Source: Chlorella sorokiniana
Taxonomy: Eukaryota; Chlorophyta; Trebouxiophyceae; Chlorellales; Chlorellaceae
Length of the DNA: 64,000 bases
NCBI GenBank assembly: GCA_025917655.1
Contig: CP084619.1
Location: 3,019,001-3,083,000, forward strand
Direction of reading: 5' to 3'
The notes beneath the pieces are model-generated. The model worked only from the letters and a program-made list of their open reading frames with translations, ran no database searches and was not told the DNA's origin. Every line of letters begins with the position of its first letter. Position 1 is the stretch's first letter. The position numbers were made by a program, and so were the translations under genes. Shown one piece after another: positions 30,979 to 56,273 of the stretch.

Positions 30979-31330
30979 TGTTGGAATACGATCAACGTCC
31001 CTATATGGCACCACAAATGGGCACATACTAATTAACCTCCGGGTTGGCGCTTTTAACAGGTTATGGGCCCCAATGCGCTAGATGGGCGCACTGTCACATA
31101 CACCCACAGATCGTGGGTTCGATTCCCATCACGGGACATCCAGGTTTCCGGCCTGTAAGACGATTCTCCACTCGGAAGCGGGGGAGCAGCCCCCGCCTTC
31201 ACGATCGTGGTTAGGTACGAAGCGAGCATACGGAACGTTGCTCGGGGGAGTGTTGGAATACGATCAACGTCCCTATATGGCACCACAAATGGGCACATAC
31301 TAATTAACCTCCGGGTTGGCGCTTTTAACA
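30979..31330 (+). mobile_element. TRIM: complete 352-bp miniature LTR element with tRNA-like core
   Basis: Two identical 80-bp LTRs (30979-31058, 31251-31330), TGTTGGAATACG...GCTTTTAACA, enclose 192 bp. The 5-bp target duplication CCTAG is exact (30974-30978, 31331-31335) and splits the Copia1 RT codons. The interior has the primer-binding site GGTTATGGGCCCC right after the LTR, a tRNA-like domain (31063-31140) and the purine tract GGGGGAG before the second LTR. It has no coding capacity. Identical LTRs mean a young insertion. Confidence 0.92.
31063..31140 (+). other. tRNA-Met-like cloverleaf inside TRIM
   Basis: D-arm GCGC-TAGATGG-GCGC (31075-31089), an anticodon-arm-like CTGT...ACAG (31091-31109) with CAT at 31097-31099, and T-arm GTGGG-TTCGATT-CCCAT (31113-31129). 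GGTTCGATTCC is a near-perfect Pol III B box. The 3' half resembles elongator tRNA-Met. The acceptor stem does not pair, so this is tRNA-derived rather than a working tRNA gene. Confidence 0.6.
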
Positions 31331-39903: not shown

Positions 39904-39932
39904 CTCCCACGCAGGCTGCACAGCCGCTGCAC

Positions 39933-42900
39933 TCAGGCGATGCCCATAGCTGCGCGGCAGTACTTGAACTTGTTGGTGGGCACGGGCTTGGTCAGGATGT
40001 CAGCAACCATGGCATCGGTGGGGATGTAGCTGAAGTTGACTTCGCCACGGATGACGCGCTCGCGTGCAAAGTGGTGGATGATGTCGATGTGCTTGGAGCG
40101 AAGGGAGATGACTGGATTCTTCAGCATGTGAATGGCTGACTGGCTGTCTGACTTGATGTCGATGCAGGCGATGTGCAGGTCCAGGTCAGCGAAGAGCTTG
40201 CGCAGCCACAGTGCTTCCTTGACGGCGGAGGCGGCTGCCATGTACTCAGCTTCTGTAGTAGATGCGGCGACGGTGGGTTGCAGGCGTGAGCTCCAGGTGA
40301 TGGCGCCGTTCTTGAAGGTGAAGACGTAGCCGGTGGTGGAGCGGCGGGTGTCGATGTCGCCAGCATGGTTGGCGTCGCAGTAGGCGTCGAGGGTAGCGTT
40401 GGACGGGCTGAAGATGATGCCGTAGTCAGGGGTACCAGCGAGGTATCGCAGCACATGCTTGGCTGCAGTCCAGTGGGAGGTGGTGGGCTTGGACATGTAG
40501 CGGGCCAGCGCTCCCACGGCTTGGGCGATATCGGGTCTGGTGCAGGATGCCAGGTACATGAGGGAGCCGATGAGTGTGGAGTAGGGGTGCTCTGAGATGT
40601 CCAGTGGGTCTCCGTCGGCGGTGAGCTTGAAGGCGATGCTTGAGGGTGTGTCGAAAGGCTTGGACTTGTCCATGCTGAACTTGGACAGCAGGTCGGTGGT
40701 GTGACGGGTCTGGGTCAGCTTGATGGTCTTGGCGGCACGGTCTCGCATGATGTCGATGCCTAGGAAGAAGGAGGCTGGGCCCAGGTCGCGGGTGTCGAAG
40801 GCGGTGGCTATCTGGTTCTTGATGGAGCTCAGCATGGATGTGTCGGCGGTGATGACCAAGATGTCATCGACGTAGATGAGCAGGTAGACTGGTGGAGAGG
40901 AAAGCTTGATGAAGAGGCCTGGGTCAGCTGTCGACTCGGTGAAGCCCATGGACTCGATCTCGGTCTTCAGGGTGCGATGCCAGGCTCGAGAAGCTTGCTT
41001 GAGTCCATAGAGGGCTTTGTTCAGCTTGCATGCTTGGTCATGGTTGCCGTTGTGGTAGCCAGGAGGTTGCTGAATGTAGACGTCTTCGTCCAGCTTGCCG
41101 TTGAGGAAGGCGGTCTTGATGTCGAGCTGGTGAATCTCCAGGTCCAGGTCGGCAGCAATGGCCAACACGGTGCGCAGGGTGGAGTACTTGGAGACAGGTG
41201 CAAACACTTGGTCGTAGTCGATGCCTTCGCGTTGGTGGAAGCCTTTGACGACGAGGCGGGCCTTGTAGCGCTCGATGTTGCCGTTGGCGTCGCGCTTCTC
41301 CTTGTAGACCCACTTGACTGGAATGGGCTTGACGCCAGGAGGTGTAGGTTGCAGGGTCCAAGTGTTGTTGGCGGCCAGGGAAGCGATCTCCTCGTCCATG
41401 GCGGAGCGCCAAAGGTCGGCGTTGGGAGATTGCAGGGCTTCCTCCAGGGTGGTAGGCTCAGCTGTTGCGGTGGCGATGTTGATGGTGGCTTGAGAGGTGA
41501 TGCGGTATGCGTCGTCCTGCCACTGGCTGGCTGGGGCGGCGCGCAGCGGCACGCTCGGTGCGCCGCAGGGCGATGGGAGGAGAAGGTGGGTCTTCAGGCT
41601 CGGCTGGTGCTCCCACGGACTCGGTGTCGCCGGTTTCATCGTTGTCGAGGAGGGAGATGGTCTCTGGCAGGTTGGGCTTGGGCAGGTTGGTCTTGGGCAG
41701 GCTTGGCTTGGGCAGACTGGTCTTGGGCAGGTTGGAGCTGGTCTCATTGAAGGTGACATCGCGGCTGATGACGATGGAGCCGTTGTCCAGTAGGATCTTG
41801 TAGCCCTTGGTGTTGGTCGGGTAGCCAATGAAGCGGCCGGGCTCGCTGACTGCATCGAGCTTGGAGCGAAGCGCTGTTGGAATGTGGGCGTAGGCACGGG
41901 CGCCAAAGATGCGCAGGTGGGAGAGGTCAGGCTTGGTGCCGTGGAGCATCTCGTAGGGGGTGACGTCTTGGGCAGATGTTGGAGAGCGGGTGCGCAAGTA
42001 GTTGGCGGTGGCGATGGCTTCTGCCCATAAGAACTTGGGCAGGTTGTACTCGGCCAGCATGGGGCGCGCCTTGTCCAGCAGGGTGCGGTTGAGGCGCTCG
42101 GCCTTGCCGTTCTGCTGAGGCGTGTAGGCGACGGTGGTCTCTGACTGGATGCCCTTGGACTTGTAGAAGGTGTCCAGGTCGTTGTTGATGAACTCGCCGC
42201 CGTTGTCAGAGCGGATGCGCTTGACGGTGTGGCCGGTTTGACGCTCCAGCAGGTTGATGGTGGTCTTCAGGAAGTCAGCGGCGTCAGACTTGCGGCGCAA
42301 GGGAGCGATGTGTGAGTAGCCAGTGTAGTCATCCAGGATGGTCATGAAGTACAGGCTGCCACCGTGGGAGGGGACTGGCATGGGACCGCAAAGGTCGGTG
42401 TGCAGCAGCTCCAAAGGCTTGTGGGTGACGGAGGTGGAGGTGCAGAACGGTTGACGGTGTTGCTTGCCCAGGGTGCAAGCGTCGCAGGTGTCTGCGCTGG
42501 TGGCTTTGAAGTCGGAGGGGTCGATGCTGATGCCGGTGGCCATGGTGGTGAGCTTGGCCAGGTTGTCGTAGCCGAGGTGGCCGAGGCGGCGGTGCCACAG
42601 GTTGGGTGTGTCGGCGCGTGCAGCGTAGGCGATGGTGAGGGCGTAGGCGGCGGAGCCTGGCTCGAGGCAGCGGCTGGCCAGGTGGTAGGTGTTGCTGGTG
42701 GCGTCGGTGTAGCCGTAGGCAATCATGTGGTTGCCCATGGAGATCTGGCAGCCGGTGCGGTCGAAGGAGAAGCTGATGCCTTTCTGGGTAGCTCGGTTGA
42801 CGGACAGGAGGTTGTCGGCGGCGTCGGGCATGTAGAGCACATCGGTGAGCTTGATCAGGTTGTCTGGGTTGGGCTGCAGGTACGCGTCGCCGATGAGGGT

Positions 42901-44024
42901 GGCCTCTCCGACGCTGCCGTTGCCGAAAGTGATGCGGATGGGCTGCGGCGCCGGGCGCAGGTTGGTGAGGAGTTGCTGGTGTGGTGTGATGTGCCGGCTC
43001 GCTCCAGTGTCCACGATCCAGTTGTCGCTGATGGTGTTGGAGGTGGTGGCGGCGGTGAAGGCGATGGCGCTGTACTGGGCGTTGACGCTGCGGTTGGAAG
43101 GCGGCGGGCGTTGGTTGAAGCGGCGGGCTTCCATGTCGCGGCGCTTCTTGTTGCACTCGTGGGCGTAGTGGCCAGGCTTGTGGCAGTAGAGGCAGGTGCC
43201 TTCGGCGTAGGCGCGGGCATCGCGGGAGGAGCGCTCGTCGACGCGGATGCCGAAGGTGCGTGGTGGGCCAAAGTTGGGTGGTGGACCGTTGAAGTTGGGC
43301 GGCCGCATGCGGGGTTGCTGCTGCGGGGGCCACTGCCACGAGGGCCGTTGTTGCGGTTGATGCCGTTGATGTTGCGGGAAGCGCCATTGCTGTTGGAGTG
43401 CCGGTCGTCGCGGCGAGGATGGAAGGAGGCCATCAGGGCTGAGTCGGAGCTGCGGATGACGTCGGGCTTGGCGCGGCGGTGCTCGGCTTGCAGAAGGTGG
43501 GGCAGGATGTCATCCACGGTGAATGTGCCGGCGGAGGCGGTGGTGGTTTCGATGACGGTGACGACTGTGTCGAAGGTGGAGGGCAGGCCAGCCAGGACTT
43601 GGCACGCCACGTCGATGTCTTCGACCTTGTGGCCGGCGGCGTTGAGCTGGTCTTGCAGGGCCTTGGCACGGTTGGTGAAGGCGGTGACAGTCTCGGTGGA
43701 GGCCATCTTCAGGGAGTTGAGCTCACGGCGCAGTTGGAGCTTGCGTGCGAAGGACTTGGCGGCGAAGATGCCTTGCAGAGTGGTCCAGGCTTGGTTGGCG
43801 GTGGTGCAGCGCAGGATGGTTGGCTGGTGGTGGGGCTTGACGAGGAGGCCGATGTAGGAGAGGGCGAGCTCGTCTGCCTTGATGTCCTCGGGAGTGGTTG
43901 GGGCCGCGGTGCTGACGACGGTGTGCCAGCACTTCTTGGTGGTGAGGAAGAACTTCATGTTGGCTGCCCACACTGTGTAGTTGTCCCAGTCCAGCCGCTC
44001 AATAGACATGCCGTCGGTCGCCAT
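39933..44024 (-). CDS. Copia2a gag-pol polyprotein, two frameshifts
   Basis: ATG at 44024 (MATDGMSIERLDWDNYTVWA). Gag domain, then zinc knuckle CLYCHKPGHYAHEC (about 43170), protease WIVDTGASRHIT (about 43010), pre-integrase LWHRRLGHLGYDN, integrase with HTDLCGPM, LDDYTGYSHI, RSDNGGEFINND and TPQQNGKAERLNRTLLDKA (D-D-E triad present). RT has KWVYKEKRDANGNIERYKAR, IHQLDIKTAFLNGKLDEDV and YVDDILVITA; RNase H has [20 protein letters not shown] and [19 protein letters not shown]. Stop at 39935-39933. One C is missing near 43310 and one base is changed near 41535; otherwise it is continuous, about 1360 residues, the normal Copia length. A nearly intact, probably young copy. Confidence 0.9.
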
Positions 44025-44224
44025 GATGTCCACGCTTGTGTGCAGACTGCTGACTGCTGACGGCTGGCGGCCGCTAGCAGGCACCTTGTGCCTCTGCTAG
44101 TGCGTGCTCGGAGGTGCCGCGGCAAGGGGTGCCGCAGATTGTGCTGTTGAAATACGATCAACGTCCCTATATGGCACCACAAATGGGCACATACTAATTA
44201 ACCTCCGGGTTGGCGCTTTTAACA

Positions 44225-45180
44225 GGTTATGGGCCCCAGCTCCCTCCTCTGCCCTTGAGTCCGGCACACGCTCTTGCCGTCACCCCAGACGCCTTTTCTC
44301 GCTGCCAGCGCCCCTCGCACCACTCGCGAGCACTTCCGCCTCGACCTCCCGGAACGGCGCCTTCGACCGAAGCCTCTCAGACTAAGCCCGCCTTTGCTTG
44401 CGGCACATTTCGCACATAGCAGCGCCTTTTCGCTCGCACAGCGCCGCCTTTCGCTCGCACAGCCAGCGCCTTTTGCTGCCTAGCTGCCAGCCAGCAGCCG
44501 ACAGCTCAATTCTGCTTTCCGGCAACCTAAATCTGCTTTCGACAGCACCTGCTCGCAAAGAGACAGCTGCTTGAGCAGCTGTGTGGCAGCTGAGTAAGCG
44601 AGTTGGGTCACTTGTGACCAGCTCGATACCCCGCCTCCCGCCAAGTTACTAAACTTCCACTTTGCCTCAACCCACTGCCGTAGCTCTACGCTGACACAAC
44701 CACTTAAGATAAGTGCAAGCAGCGCCCTAGCGCCTCCGCGCGCCGCTGCTCCGCCCCTCTGGCCCCTCCGTTATTGGCAGTGCCCCAGCGCCTAAGTGCG
44801 CCGCTGCCTTTGCCCCCTGGGCACTCTCCTTCAGGCAGTGCCCTAGCGCCGTCGAGCGCCGCTGCCATCCACATCTGTCCTGCCCCCCTTTCCCGTCTAT
44901 TCCTCCACTTCTGTTACATTTACTCAAAGGTGGTGCCTGGGCTGTGCTGTTTACGTGTGGCACGCAGCTCCCCCGTTCGGTGCCTGGCCTCGTGTGCCAC
45001 GTACCGGCTACTTATTCTTAGGCACCGACCTTCCCCACCTTTCCGCCAGCCATCTCCGGCGGCACAATCTGCGGCACCCCTTGCCGCGGCACCTCCGAGC
45101 ACGCACTAGCAGAGGCACAAGGTGCCTGCTAGCGGCCGCCAGCCGTCAGCAGTCAGCAGTTGCACACAAGCGTGGACAGC
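44225..45180 (+). other. Copia2 leader (5' UTR) inside the hybrid
   Basis: Starts with the primer-binding site GGTTATGGGCCCC and runs to the gag ATG at 45181 with no ORF of note. Positions 44719-44872 hold three imperfect units of about 58 bp, each with a GCAGTGCCC-AGCGCC start and GCGCCGCTGC end, a candidate packaging or dimer element. Confidence 0.7.
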
Positions 45181-48100
45181 ATGGCGACAGACGGCATGTC
45201 CATTGAGCGGCTGGACTGGGACAACTACACAGTGTGGGCAGCCAACATGAAGTTCTTCCTCACCACCAAGAAGTGCTGGCACACCGTCGTCAGCACCGAG
45301 GCCCCAACAACTCCCGAGGACATCAAGGCAGACGAGCTCGCCCTCTCCTACATCGGCCTCCTCGTCAAGCCCCACCACCAGCCAACCATCCTGCGCTGCA
45401 CCACGGCCAACCAAGCCTGGACCACTCTGCAAGGCATCTTCGCCGCCAAGTCCTTCGCACGCAAGCTCCAACTGCGCCGTGAGCTCAACTCTCTGAAGAT
45501 GGCCTCCACCGAGACCGTCACCGCCTTCACCAACCGTGCCAAGGCCCTGCAAGACCAGCTCAACGCCGCCGGCCACAAGGTCGAAGACATCGACGTGGCG
45601 TGCCAAGTCCTGGCTGGCCTGCCCTCCACCTTCGACACAGTCGTCACCGTCATCGAAACCACCACCGCCTCCGCCGGCACATTCACCGTGGATGACATCC
45701 TGCCCCACCTTCGCAAGCCGAGCACCGCCGCGCCAAGCCCGACGTCATCCGCAGCTCCGACTCAGCCCTGATGGCCTCCTTCCATCCTCGCCGCGACGAC
45801 CGGCACTCCAACAGCAATGGCGCTCCCCGCAACATCAACGGCATCAACCGCAACAACGGCCCTCGCGGCAGTGGCCCCCGCAGCAGCAACCCCCGCATGC
45901 GGCCGCCCAACTTCAACGGTCCACCACCCAGCTTTGGCCCACCACGCACCTTCGGCATCCGCGTCGACGAGCGCTCCTCCCGCGATGCCCGCGCCTACGC
46001 CGAAGGCACCTGCCTCTACTGCCACAAGCCTGGCCACTACGCCCACGAGTGCAACAAGAAGCGCCGCGACATGGAAGCCCGCCGCTTCAACCAACGCCCG
46101 CCGCCTTCCAACCGCAGCGTCAACGCCCAGTACAGCGCCATCGCCTTCACCGCCGCCACCACCTCCAACACCATCAGCGACAACTGGATCGTGGACACTG
46201 GAGCGAGCCGGCACATCACACCACACCAGCAACTCCTCACCAACCTGCGCCCGGCGCCGCAGCCCATCCGCATCACTTTCGGCAACGGCAGCGTAGGAGA
46301 GGCCACCCTCATCGGCGACGCGTACCTGCAGCCCAACCTTGACAACCTGATCAAGCTCACCGACGTGCTCTACATGCCAGACGCCGCCGACAACCTCCTG
46401 TCCGTCAACCGAGCCACCCAGAAAGGCATCAGCTTCTCCTTTGACCGCACCGGCTGCCAGATCTCCATGGGCAACCACATGATTGCCTACGGCTACACCG
46501 ACGCCACCAGCAACACCTACCACCTGGCCAGCCGCTGCCTCGAGCCAGGCTCCGCCGCCTACGCCCTCACCATCGCCTACGCTGCACGCGCCCACACACC
46601 CCTGTGGCACCGCCGCCTCGGCCACCTCGGCTACGACAACCTGGCCAAGCTCACCACCATGGCCACCGGCATCAGCATCGACCCCTCCGACTTCAAAGCC
46701 ACCAGCGCAGACACCTGCGACGCCTGCACCCTGGGCAAGCAACATCGCCAACCGTTCAACGCCTCCACCTCCTTCACCCACAAGCCTCTGGAGCTGCTGC
46801 ACACCGACCTCTGCGGTCCCATGCCAGTCCCCTCCCACGGTGGCAGCCTGTACTTCATGACCATCCTGGATGACTACACTGGCTACTCTCACATCGCTCC
46901 CTTGCGCCGCAAGTCTGACGCCGCTGACTTCCTGAAGACCACCGTCAACCTGCTGGAGCGTCAGACCCGCCACACCGTCAAGCGCATCCGCTCTGACAAC
47001 GGCGGCGAGTTCATCAACAACGACCTGGACACCTTCTACAAGTCCAAGGGCATCCAGTCGAGACCACCGTCTCCTACACGCCCCAGCAAAACGGCAAGGC
47101 TGAGCGTCTCAACCGCACCCTGCTGGACAAGGCGCGCCCCATGCTGGCCGAGTACAACCTGCCCAAGCATCTTTGGGCCGAAGCCATCGTCACCGCCAAC
47201 TACTTGCGCAACCGCTCGCCAACATCTGCCCAAGACGTCACCCCCTACGAGATGCTTCACGGCACCAAGCCCGACCTCTCCCACCTGCGCATCTTTGGCG
47301 CCCGTGCCTACGCCCACATTCCAACAGCACTACGCTCCAAGCTCGATGCAGTTAGCGAGCCCGGCCGCTTCATCGGCTACCCCACCAACACCAAAGGCTA
47401 CAAGATCCCGCTGGACAACGGCTCCATCGTCATCAGCCGCGATGTCACCTTCAATGAGGCCAGCTCCAACCTGCCCAAGCCCATCCTGCCAGAGACCATT
47501 TCCCTCATCGACAACGATGACACCGGCGACACCGAGTCCGTGGGAGCACCAGCCGAGCTCGAAGACCCACCTTCTCCTCCCATCGCCCTGCGGCGCACCG
47601 AGCGTGCCGGCGCGCGCCGCCCAGCCAGCCGGTGGCGGGACGACGCATACCGCATCACCTCTCGAGCCACCATCAACATCGCCACCGCAACAGCTGAGCC
47701 TACCACCCTGGAGGAAGCCCCGCAATCTCCCAACGCCGACCTTTGGCGCTCCGCCATGGACGAGGAGATCGCTTCCTTGGCCGCCAACAACACCTGGACC
47801 CCGCAGCCTACACCTCCCGGCATCAAGCCCATTCCAGTCAAGTGGGTCTACAAGGAGAAGCGCGACGCCAACGGCAACATCGAGCGCTACAAGGCCCGCC
47901 TCGTCGTCAAAGGCTTCCACCAACGCGAAGGCATCGACTACGACCAAGTGTTTGCACTGTCTCCAAGTACTCCACCCCGCGCACCGTGTTGGCCATTGCC
48001 GCCGACCTGGACCTAGAGATTCACCAGCTGGACATCAAGACCGCCTTCCTCAACGGCAAGCCGGACGAAGACGTCTACATTCGGCAACCTCCCGGCTACC

Positions 48101-48475
48101 ACAACGGCAACCATGACCAAGCATGCAAGCTGAACAAGGCCCTCTATGGACTCAAGCAAGCTTCTCGAGCCGGGCATCGCACCCCGAAGACCGAGATCGA
48201 GTCCATGGGCTTCACCGAGTCAGCCTGCCGACCCCGGGCCTCTTCATCAAGCTGTCCTCTCCACCAGTCTACACCGCTCATCTACGTCGACGACATCCCG
48301 GTCATCACCGCCGACACATCCATGCTGAGCTCCATCAAGAAGCGAGATAGCCACCGCCTTCGACACCCGCGACCGGGCCCAGCCTCCTTCTTCTTCCGGG
48401 CATCGACATCATGCGAGACCGCGCCTCCAAGACCATCAAGGCGACCAGACCCGTCACACCACCGACCTCTTTGTC
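45181..48475 (+). pseudogene. Copia2b gag-pol inside the hybrid, degraded
   Basis: ATG at 45181 (MATDGMSIERLDWDNYTVWA). All domains to the RT are recognisable: gag, knuckle CLYCHKPGHYAHEC (46012), WIVDTGASRHIT (46186), integrase RSDNGGEFINND (46990), RT IHQLDIKTAFLNGKPDEDV (48020) and a damaged YVDD region (48280). Compared with Copia2a, single bases are missing near 45711, 47060, 47955, 48230 and elsewhere. RNase H is absent because the copy stops at 48475, where an 80-bp block from 47475-47554 is repeated. Confidence 0.85.
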
Positions 48476-48554
48476 CAAGCCCATCCCGCCAGAGACCATT
48501 TCCCTCATCGACAACGATGACACCGGCGACACCGAGTCCGTGGGAGCACCAGCC
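48475..48554 (+). repeat. Template-switch duplication of 47475-47554
   Basis: 80 bp beginning CCAAGCCCATCC and ending GAGCACCAGCC repeat the pol segment exactly 1000 bp upstream with one mismatch, then run straight into the TRIM purine tract. Confidence 0.85.
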
Positions 48555-48561
48555 GGGGGAG

Positions 48562-48914
48562 TGTTGAAATACGATCAACGTCCCTATATGGCACCACAAA
48601 TGGGCACATACTAATTAACCTCCGGGTTGGCGCTTTTAACAGGTTATGGGCCCCAATGCGCTAGATGGGCGCGTTGTCACATACACCCACAGATTGTGGG
48701 TTCGATTCCCATCACGGGACATCCAGGTTTCCGGCCTGTAAAACGTTTCTCCACTCGGAAGCGGGGGAGCAGCCCCCGCCTTCACGATCGTGGTTAGGTA
48801 CGAAGCGAGCATACGGAACGTTGCTCGGGGGGAGTGTTGAAATACGATCAACGTCCCTATATGGCACCACAAATGGGCACATACTAATTAACCTCCGGGT
48901 TGGCGCTTTTAACA
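48562..48914 (+). mobile_element. Second TRIM unit (LTR-interior-LTR) in tandem with the hybrid
   Basis: 80-bp LTRs at 48562-48641 and 48835-48914 around a 193-bp interior almost identical to the TRIM at 30979, including the T-arm GTGGG-TTCGATT-CCCAT (48697-48713). Confidence 0.9.
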
Positions 48915-48919
48915 TGTGC

Positions 48920-49758
48920 CGCCGGAGATGGCTGGCGGAAAGGTGGGGAAGGTCGGTGCCTAAGAATAAGTAGCCGGTACGTGGCACACGAGGCCAGGCA
49001 CCGAACGGGGGAGCTGCGTGCCACACGAGGACAAGACACAGCCAGTGCACCGCCTTGGAGTAAAGGTACGAGAAGGGGAGGAATAGACGGGAAAGGGGGC
49101 GGGGACAGGTGTGGGGGGCGGCGGCGCTCGACGGCGCTAGGGCACCGCCTAAAGGAGAGTGCCCGGGGGGCAAAGCGGCGGCGCACTTAGGCGCGGGGGC
49201 ACTACCCGCAACGGAGGGGCCGAGAGGGGCGGAGCGAGCGGCGCACGGAGGCGCTAGGGCGCGCTTGCACTTATCTTAAGTGGTTGTGACAGCGTAAAGC
49301 TACGGCGGTGGGTTGAGGCAAAGTGGAAGTTTAGTAACTTGGCGGGAGGCGGGGTATCGAGCTGGTCACAAGTGACCCAACTCGCTTACTCAGCTGCTAC
49401 ACAGCTGCTCAAGCAGCTGTCTCTTTGCGAGCGGGTCTTTGTCGAAAGCAGATTTAGGCTGCCGGAAAGCAGAATTGAGCTGTCGGCTGCTGGCTGGCAG
49501 CTAGGCAGCAAAAGGCGCCGGGCCGTGCGAGCGAAAGGCGGCGGCGTGCGAGCGAAAAGGCGCTGCTATGTGCGAAATGTGCCGCAAGCAAAGGCGGGCT
49601 TAGTCTGAGAGGCTTCGGTCGAAGGCGCCGTTCCGGAGGTCGAGGCGGAAGTGCTCGCGAGTGGTGCTCGGGCGCTGGCAGCGAGAAAAGGCGTCTGGGG
49701 TGACGGCAAGAGCTTGTGCCGGACTCAAGGGCAGAGGAGGGAGTTGGGGCCCATAACC
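48920..49758 (-). other. Copia2a leader, minus sense
   Basis: The complement of 44225-45065 with scattered mismatches; the primer-binding site is at 49758-49746 next to the LTR. No coding sequence seen. Confidence 0.75.
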
Positions 49759-50111
49759 TGTTGGATGGAGGTAGTTACAAAGAGCGCAAGAGTTTGAAAG
49801 AGGGCGCAGAATGGCGCTAAATAGGCTGGAGCAGCACAATGCTACTATTGGCATTATTCCGGCATATGCGGGGTAGTGTTTGTGGTAGTGGCATGACGGC
49901 GGGGCTCGGGTGCACAGAAATGCATGGCATGGGGGTCAATCAACTTAGAATAAAGTGGGAAAGCATAATCGAAGGGTGTCTGAGCGTATTAGCTAAGTTG
50001 GGCTCATGCATGACGAAAGGGTGTCCACGTCAGCAGCGTCTGCCACGTGGCAGCTGGGGAGATGTGCTGCGGGTGTGCAGGCTGGACATGTGGCTCAGCC
50101 ACATCTCAACA
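49759..50111 (-). repeat. Copia2a 5' LTR
   Basis: 353 bp; in minus sense TGTTGAGATGTGG...CTCCATCCAACA, the same length as the LTR at 52941-53293. Followed on the right by GTCTG and LINE2 sequence. Confidence 0.88.
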
Positions 50112-56193: not shown

Positions 56194-56273
56194 TGTTGGA
56201 ATACGATCAACGTCCCTATATGGCACCACAAATGGGCACATACTAATTAACCTCCGGGTTGGCGCTTTTAACA
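56194..56273 (+). repeat. Solo TRIM LTR with target duplication
   Basis: The 80-bp LTR alone, flanked by CAACC (56189-56193, 56274-56278). A TRIM that lost its interior by LTR-LTR recombination. Confidence 0.93.

Follow-up and report, generated by a model that had tools for sequence, protein, structure and literature searches.

A three-LTR composite of TRIM and Copia2 sequences in Chlorella sorokiniana, with its 5' join at the shared primer-binding site

The element at 44145-48914 of the window (the whole 64,000-nucleotide stretch of DNA analysed here) is more than a simple hybrid of TRIM LTRs and a Copia2 interior, as it forms a complex with three LTRs. Its order is LTR - Copia2 interior - LTR - TRIM interior - LTR, with two interiors and a middle LTR common to both halves. 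On our best reading, to which we assign a probability of about 0.55, TRIM and Copia2 were packaged together and the composite arose when strands were transferred between them at their common primer site. It is best read as a new variant of the known template-switching complexes.

Structure of the composite and its insertion

The features of the composite and of the Copia2a copy that it interrupts are as follows.

39907..44144, minus strand: remaining interior of Copia2a
44140..44144, plus strand: left target-site duplication (TSD) TGTGC, inside the leader of Copia2a, which lies on the minus strand
44145..44224, plus strand: TRIM LTR 1, 80 bp, TGTTGAAATACG..TTTTAACA
44225..44238, plus strand: primer-binding site (PBS) GGTTATGGGCCCCA, common to TRIM and Copia2, the putative exchange point
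44225..45161, plus strand: Copia2 leader, 99.68% identity to several canonical copies with the 353-bp LTR
45181..45768, plus strand: gag frame (Retrotran_gag_2, E 2e-28)
45696..48113, plus strand: pol frame (Pol_BBD, gag_pre-integrs, integrase core rve)
46997..48013, plus strand: overlapping frame (SH3_retrovirus, beginning of RVT_2), the pol frame being broken
47472..47555, plus strand: 84-bp pol segment, first copy (repeated at 48472)
47556..48555, plus strand: dense CTG/CAG-site differences, probable uncorrected read error; right edge uncertain
47698..48564, plus strand: frame with the remainder of RVT_2 (profile 57-203 of 244)
48472..48555, plus strand: 84-bp pol segment, second copy, 1000 bp downstream of the first, its initial bases still within the collinear Copia2 match, which ends at 48479
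48556..48561, plus strand: GGGGAG, TRIM-type purine-tract end ahead of LTR 2
48562..48641, plus strand: TRIM LTR 2, common to both halves
48642..48834, plus strand: TRIM interior, 193 bp, PBS first and GGGGGGAG last
48835..48914, plus strand: TRIM LTR 3
48915..48919, plus strand: right TSD TGTGC
48915..49758, minus strand: 5' part of the Copia2a leader, beyond the insertion
49759..50111, minus strand: 5' LTR of Copia2a, 353 bp, TGTTGAGATG..CCAACA

The three LTRs (44145-44224, 48562-48641 and 48835-48914) are mutually identical over 80/80 bases. An earlier note on this DNA had described TRIM LTRs enclosing a Copia2 interior; the framing by identical 80-bp LTRs held, but the third LTR and the complete TRIM interior had been overlooked. 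The note was right that the interior begins at the shared primer site, and no 353-bp Copia2 LTR was found within 44145-48914.

The TGTGC duplication surrounds the whole composite only, at 44140-44144 and 48915-48919, and neither half alone has a TSD. When the flanks were joined through a single TGTGC, they read like the leader of L026 and like the composite's own leader, so that removal restores the Copia2a leader, as had been proposed. The claim that the hybrid transposed was likewise supported: the composite is bounded by a 5-bp TSD, as insertion in one piece would predict. A second composite with a TSD (GGCGG) was found at L022. Its outer TRIM LTRs both carry A6G and A32C, and A32C occurs in 0/19 of the other full-length LTRs listed alongside. 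A TSD around the composite was thus demonstrated in two of six TRIM-LTR/Copia2-leader hybrids, the window copy and L022. For L021 taken as a single insertion, no TSD appeared with any of three boundary choices; none was seen between the LTRs tested in L025 or at the boundary tested in L032. TSD testing covered hybrids with both ends placed, which leaves L023 and L024 outside it. Dating of the composite by LTR identity was rejected: 31/40 scored TRIM LTRs match the composite LTR exactly over its full length, and age is poorly told where most copies are identical.

TRIM itself consists of 80-bp LTRs, a 193-bp non-coding interior, a PBS and a purine tract (PPT). Nine of 12 TRIM units tested had 5-bp TSDs (L046-L051, two in L022, and L061); the exceptions were both L021 units and the TRIM part of the composite in the window. 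TRIM and Copia2 have in common the PBS, the purine-tract end GGGAG and the LTR termini TGTTGA/AACA, and, judged from sequence, TRIM is probably the non-autonomous partner of the Copia2 family. Tandem TRIM arrays, L3I2 and longer with a shared LTR, occur at L011, L013, L019 and L060. On the 11 contigs tabulated, Copia2 and TRIM copies crowd into clusters spanning 12-91 kb, and inversions and truncations are present within clusters (L021, L022, L024). Thirteen large contigs make up 38.61 of 38.80 Mb, with one Copia2 cluster per contig where found. In half-tRNA-primed copia elements the PBS is complementary to an internal fragment of the initiator tRNA. Two initiator-tRNA patterns matched no gene. 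ARAGORN found no tRNA in the window, and Rfam gave no match in the window at gathering scores, nor in 48562-48914 up to E 1.

The 3' end and coding capacity

The Copia2 interior is collinear with canonical copies up to ~48479, and its own 3' end is not reached. Beyond this point lies the remainder of the repeat (48472-48555) of pol 47472-47555, followed by GGGGAG and the TRIM LTR. The interior had been said to end at the TRIM purine tract; GGGGAG does precede LTR 2, but the Copia2 part is truncated and the join falls in doubtful sequence. Compared with the canonical copy L026, 47556-48465 has 41.8 difference events per kb, of which 35/38 are at CTG/CAG sites (background 0.233, p 3e-19), against 3.9 events per kb and 5/13 at such sites in 44225-47555. 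These dense differences are probably uncorrected read error, and the 3' join is doubtful because it adjoins or lies within them. A reading of the T>C and A>G changes as real mutation was set aside, as they affect CTG/CAG on both strands and are accompanied by small indels, though inheritance may still account for some. They are presumably nanopore miscalls at methylated sites; a literature search found no paper on nanopore miscalling at methylated CTG/CAG sites. Such a signature calls for caution when retrotransposon frames are read in assemblies of this kind.

It is possible, though we doubt it, that the whole 3' half is an assembly artefact, in which about 1 kb of uncorrected reads (~47556-48555) made the 84-bp repeat and masks the true 3' end. 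The rise in difference density at ~47556 and the concentration of the events at CTG/CAG would fit this, as would the spacing of the 84-bp copies, exactly 1000 bp. A similar signature is seen at L037 (233/273 events at CTG/CAG) and L036 (107/121), these being raw shares without a background. Against it, 20/26 substitutions listed at 47559-48442 occur in at least one other copy (17 shared with L036, L037, L040 or L044, three with L033 only); part of the differences in 47556-48465 may therefore have been inherited from such a template. The exact 1000 may also be chance, given edges set by eye to a few bases on the left and ~200 on the right. Even an artefact of this kind would not touch the TRIM, the TSD or the 5' join, all of which would still be real.

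The domain order gag, integrase, reverse transcriptase is that of Ty1/copia elements. Among ten other frames of the window, Pfam matches exceeded the curated cut-off in two, both Copia-type. The composite is without the 3' part of pol and without the Copia2 PPT, and its reading frames are broken, some of the breaks falling in the doubtful sequence. The regeneration of an autonomous element, raised in the earlier note, was not upheld: 3' pol and the element's own PPT are missing, and the hybrids form no lineage. A new autonomous family of TRIM LTRs with a Copia2 coding interior is very improbable. Gag, integrase and reverse transcriptase domains do lie between TRIM LTRs, and the longest stop-to-stop frame (806 aa) is no shorter than that of several canonical copies (512-1364 aa in ten). 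Besides the missing parts, however, none of the 40 candidates scored, out of 140, proved to be another copy with this 3' join, and the hybrids are not one clade. The window copy seems to be a defective by-product rather than a functional new element.

TRIM/Copia2 joins across the genome

The TRIM-LTR/Copia2-leader join was found at 6/30 leader 5' ends, the window included, and the reciprocal join, from Copia2 LTR to TRIM interior, at five places. All 11 joins sit at the shared primer site. No purine-tract join was found in either direction by two pattern searches allowing up to 3 mismatches, in which miscalled CTG/CAG sites could conceal some joins; the backwards-read control of the pattern searches gave 0 each. 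Of the two points at which the earlier note proposed a search for other joins, the 5' one recurs, the window join being one of six. In a census of 54 loci, picked via leader and TRIM searches, 11/28 same-strand TRIM/Copia2 contacts lay at the PBS in both polarities, with two of the 28 counted twice (L046 lies in the window) and the 11 having been looked for as such. No join lay at the purine tract in these loci, and most non-PBS same-strand contacts are ordinary TRIM insertion sites. The loci read also contain 23 inverted TRIM/Copia2 contacts, some of them ordinary insertions. Fusions away from the PBS comprise mosaic LTRs in L019, L024 and L041, the fusions at L004 and L010, and the window 3' join. 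In L041 the start of a TRIM LTR is joined to the end of a Copia2 LTR, as expected if the first strand transfer sometimes also runs between the partners. Three of the five reciprocal joins (L056, L057, L058) have CCATCTAACA in place of Copia2's CCATCCAACA, and L025 has TTTCAACA in place of TRIM's TTTTAACA; the point of switching may therefore be as much as 5 nt into the LTR, unless mutations or shared ancestry account for the variants.

Neither the leader tree nor the AU test allowed a single origin of the hybrids: the AU test rejected one clade with p 4e-63 unmasked and p 9e-75 after masking of every position up to one base from CTG/CAG. Hybrid leaders are interspersed with canonical ones, with five changes, four of them forced by supported branches, and not one of 200 bootstrap trees (0%) united all hybrids in a clade, although in the unmasked run the bootstrap was not yet settled. 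HYB_L021 is identical to the canonical C_L030 and C_L024b across 933 bases. The scatter is not above that of shuffled labels, of which 151/500 (unmasked) and 175/500 (masked) were as low. As the six hybrids are not one clade, they look like repeated one-off events; gene conversion could likewise have scattered them. The tree omits four fragments without a 5' end, the split copy in L059 and C7:780004, includes C_win2a, C_L032 and HYB_L023 as partial rows, and labels C_L041 canonical despite its mosaic LTR.

Origin of the joins and relation to known complexes

By strand transfer, TRIM and Copia2 RNAs or cDNAs would have been packaged together, and during reverse transcription the nascent strand would have paired at the shared PBS with a strand of the other partner. 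Such an exchange would make the TRIM LTR continuous with the Copia2 leader, and the reverse exchange would make the Copia2 LTR continuous with the TRIM interior; both joins are observed. The product in the window would be a three-LTR molecule, TRIM LTR - Copia2 interior - TRIM LTR - TRIM interior - TRIM LTR, integrated, probably in a single event, into the Copia2a leader with the 5-bp duplication seen there. Its truncated 3' end may reflect a further template jump or an assembly error. Products of this type would arise repeatedly and found no lineage. Template switching in a mixed particle, as the earlier note had it, is the most economical cause of PBS joins in both polarities with none at the purine tract, though DNA recombination remains its rival. 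To call the locus a "direct view" of an LTR acquiring an interior was too strong, as recombination in a centromere-like nest is possible and the 3' join is doubtful.

The main rival, DNA-level recombination in a nest of retrotransposons, appears unlikely. An ordinary TRIM would first have inserted in Copia2a with the TSD TGTGC, which would then belong to the older TRIM, and a circular or neighbouring molecule of TRIM LTR and Copia2 interior, its first PBS exchange made by short-homology repair, would later have recombined into a TRIM LTR. L022 can be read similarly, as a self-integrated circle that recombined into a TRIM LTR. The clustering of copies with its inversions, truncations and inverted contacts suits such a course, and the fusions away from the PBS, together with the inverted contacts, fit general rearrangement equally. 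The PBS is moreover the longest boundary identity between TRIM and Copia2 (AACA + 14 bp, versus ~11 bp at the PPT), and short-homology recombination would favour the same point. However, ~18 bp of identity is little for homologous recombination to act on. The joins also keep returning to a single point, in either polarity, and A32C is present in both outer LTRs of L022, though conversion could cause that. 

Returning to strand transfer, we tentatively suggest that TRIM and its coding partner repeatedly exchange strands at the PBS during reverse transcription, in either direction, that composite cDNAs are a regular product of which some integrate as units (at least one, L022, seemingly into itself), and that centromere-like clusters accumulate them.

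The PBS joins in both directions at several loci link TRIM with a single Copia family. A search for such mixed joins at primer sites may reveal TRIM partners in other genomes. LTR exchange with a coding interior may recur without founding a new family, and this is relevant to the ways in which non-autonomous elements might recover genes. A 2010 study reportedly described LTR exchange between an autonomous and a non-autonomous partner, as in the TRIM/Copia2 joins here.

The complexes of Sabot and Schulman (2007, PMC1950507), attributed to a switch between co-packaged RNAs, also have three LTRs, two interiors, a shared LTR and a 5-bp TSD around the whole. Their outer LTRs are alike, as one round of reverse transcription would make them; here they are identical, but so are 31/40 of the TRIM LTRs scored in the genome. 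Their halves belong to one or closely similar families with a proposed switch in R, whereas here the PBS joins a TRIM to a coding Copia family, in either polarity. The three-LTR structure is the same, with a Copia2 interior that is 3'-truncated. In PMC13317346, template switching is held responsible for the long form of Veju, a TRIM that gained a longer interior, and for BARE-2, in which an LTR region was exchanged between families (both are also named in PMC1950507). Both became subfamilies, unlike the hybrids here, and the Veju insert is described there as unknown DNA sequence, whereas the interior here is that of the probable coding partner. According to PMC4717578, 278/289 TRIM subfamilies are without a known coding partner, and the larger related elements, present for 11/289, share LTR sequence with their TRIM (79-98%); between TRIM and Copia2 only the PBS, PPT end and LTR termini are common. 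Tandem arrays of L3I2 form and longer, their LTRs shared, are described there as they are found here, but those are TRIM-only, unlike the composite. For Chlorella sp. SLA-04, the accessible text of PMC11005252 mentions no TRIM partner or hybrid, and reports that Copia-2_Chlorella_SLA04 makes up 37% of the ~52 kb centromeres. The 13 chromosomes given there compare with the 13 large contigs here.

Structure and insertion of the composite element

Features of the window were located as follows.

44145–48914: composite, in the order TRIM LTR, Copia2 interior, TRIM LTR, TRIM interior, TRIM LTR
47556–48465: doubtful stretch within the composite
30979–31330 (L046): complete TRIM with target-site duplication (TSD) CCTAG, within a different Copia-type element
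56194–56273: solo TRIM LTR flanked by the 5-bp repeat CAACC

In the composite, three identical 80-bp TRIM LTRs enclose the Copia2 leader, gag-pol and the full 193-bp TRIM interior. The TSD TGTGC lay on both sides of the entire composite, and no TSD was found around either half when both were tested alone. Rejoining the flanks, which belong to the minus-strand copy Copia2a, with a single TGTGC gave an unbroken leader that reads like those of the canonical copy L026 and of the composite itself. Because Copia2a is on the other strand, the composite is inserted in the orientation opposite to it. The coding part holds copia gag, then integrase, then RT domains, with broken frames. The doubtful stretch includes neither the 5′ join nor the TRIM nor the TSD.

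Copia2 has a 353-bp LTR (TGTTGAGATG..CCAACA), the purine tract GTGGGAG and the primer-binding site (PBS) GGTTATGGGCCCCA. TRIM has an 80-bp LTR (TGTTGAAATACG..TTTTAACA) and GGGGGGAG, and its PBS is identical to that of Copia2. At 48642–48720 the TRIM interior carries GGGTTCGATTCCC, which we take to resemble a tRNA T-arm or B box; this tRNA-like motif gave no match by Rfam or ARAGORN. A common PBS and common LTR termini serve elsewhere as criteria for pairing autonomous and non-autonomous elements (PMC11302176). TRIM is probably moved by Copia2 proteins.

Joins between TRIM and Copia2 in the genome

The initial 300 bases of the Copia2 leader served as query against the genome (15 contigs, 38.8 Mb). 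Among 34 matches, 30 included the 5′ end, and upstream sequence was read for 29 of these. A TRIM LTR stood immediately upstream at 6/30 leader 5′ ends, and a Copia2 LTR end at 23/30, including L059 and also L041 with its mosaic LTR. The reciprocal join, from a Copia2 LTR directly into a TRIM interior, was found in five places, against at least 69 TRIM-interior matches. A TRIM LTR followed the TRIM interior in all five; in four the Copia2 LTR was preceded by a Copia2 3′ end, and in the fifth (L022) it adjoined inverted gag. The earlier note had placed the hybrid's joins at the primer site and the purine tract: the former recurs in the genome, and pattern searches in both directions found none of the latter. 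The 54 loci read held 28 same-strand TRIM/Copia2 contacts, of which 11 were PBS joins and none lay at the purine tract; most of the remainder were sites where a TRIM had inserted, and the others comprised mosaic LTRs (L019, L024, L041) and a small number of unusual joins. Another 23 contacts were inverted.

The mosaic at L041 (6502–6661) passes from a TRIM LTR start to a Copia2 LTR end. Those at L024 (9407–9721) and L019 (1–225) run from the Copia2 LTR through base 243 into the TRIM LTR, with similar joins. At L029 (6795–6910), a Copia2 LTR and PBS are followed, by way of a palindrome of the PBS, by a TRIM LTR in inverted orientation (GGTTATGGGCCCCATAACC), as if by strand snap-back.

A second composite was found at L022 (1973–8808, contig C5), with the TSD GGCGG on both sides. 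Its outer TRIM LTRs have A6G and A32C in common, the latter occurring in 0/19 other full-length TRIM LTRs among those listed. Inside, two Copia2 LTR ends abut the same five gag bases (GAAGG) in inverted orientation, forming an inverted 5-bp duplication, and one terminal base is absent at one of these LTR/gag joins. At this one locus, the pattern fits a self-integrated molecule (Copia2 LTR, TRIM interior, TRIM LTR, leader, gag, pol, Copia2 LTR). Self-integration of LTR-retrotransposon cDNA is known (PMC9694575). Two more TRIMs are nested within this composite, each bounded by a separate TSD (GGTCG and GATGT).

Origin of the hybrids

A tree was built from 28 leaders, six of them hybrids (TRIM LTR joined to Copia2 leader). 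The hybrids required five changes, four forced by well-supported branches (bootstrap not settled), and no hybrid lineage was seen on this tree. A single hybrid clade was rejected when the hybrids were constrained together, with the same outcome after masking positions near CTG/CAG. The L021 hybrid leader is identical to two canonical leaders over 933 bases, and that of the window hybrid shows 99.68% identity to a canonical group. Such near-identity to different canonical leaders, together with the lack of one clade, would indicate either repeated origin from different Copia2 copies or scattering by gene conversion. Scoring 40 of 140 candidates turned up no further instance of the 3′ join seen in the window.

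PBS joins in both polarities, TSDs at two composites and hybrids that do not form one clade are the observed basis for a mechanism in which TRIM and Copia2 would be co-packaged, with strand transfer between them at the common PBS. In this scheme, one partner's plus-strand strong-stop DNA would anneal at the PBS to the minus strand of the other, placing a TRIM LTR directly 5′ of a Copia2 interior or, reciprocally, a Copia2 LTR directly 5′ of a TRIM interior. TRIM LTRs at both interior ends, as in the window composite, would require an extra switch near the purine tract. The main rival to this strand transfer is DNA recombination among clustered copies. By eye, the Copia2 matches listed group into a single cluster on each of 11 contigs (C2–C10, C12, C13). 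These centromere-like clusters span 12–91 kb, as computed from part of the matches; TRIMs also occur beyond them (C1 2.63 Mb, C2 0.74 Mb, C11 0.74 and 1.34 Mb).

LTR swapping between partners is reportedly known already. Template-switching three-LTR complexes with TSD have been described (PMC1950507), as have tandem TRIMs (PMC4717578) and long Veju and BARE-2 (PMC13317346). A limited literature search found no algal TRIM/Copia hybrid with a PBS join. The 13 large contigs and Copia-rich clusters are reminiscent of Chlorella (PMC11005252).

The 3′ region and error-like sites

Compared with L026, the composite showed 13 difference events at 44225–47555 (3.9 per kb, 5 near CTG/CAG) and 38 at 47556–48465 (41.8 per kb, 35 near CTG/CAG; background 0.233, p 3e-19). 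The same bias appeared, as raw counts, in L036 (107/121 events) and L037 (233/273), where 'near' was defined a little more broadly than for the window. CTG/CAG sites were also overrepresented among the differences of the L041, L044, L025 and Copia2a leaders from near-identical copies. Such differences are T>C, A>G and small indels, and probably represent uncorrected nanopore sequencing error at modified sites. Counting against sequencing error, 20/26 substitutions in the composite's doubtful stretch are also present in another copy, so a template of such kind could have supplied them too. Three features lie within or border this stretch: an 84-bp pol duplication whose copies are spaced by exactly 1000 bp, the missing 3′ end of pol, and the join of GGGGAG to the LTR. 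They may reflect a genuine template jump or a misassembly.

L036 and L037, separated by about 12.7 kb on C8, share the TSD TTCTT and have almost identical flanks, which implies a segmental duplication or a false assembly duplication. L042 and L043 (C3) have a structure in common.
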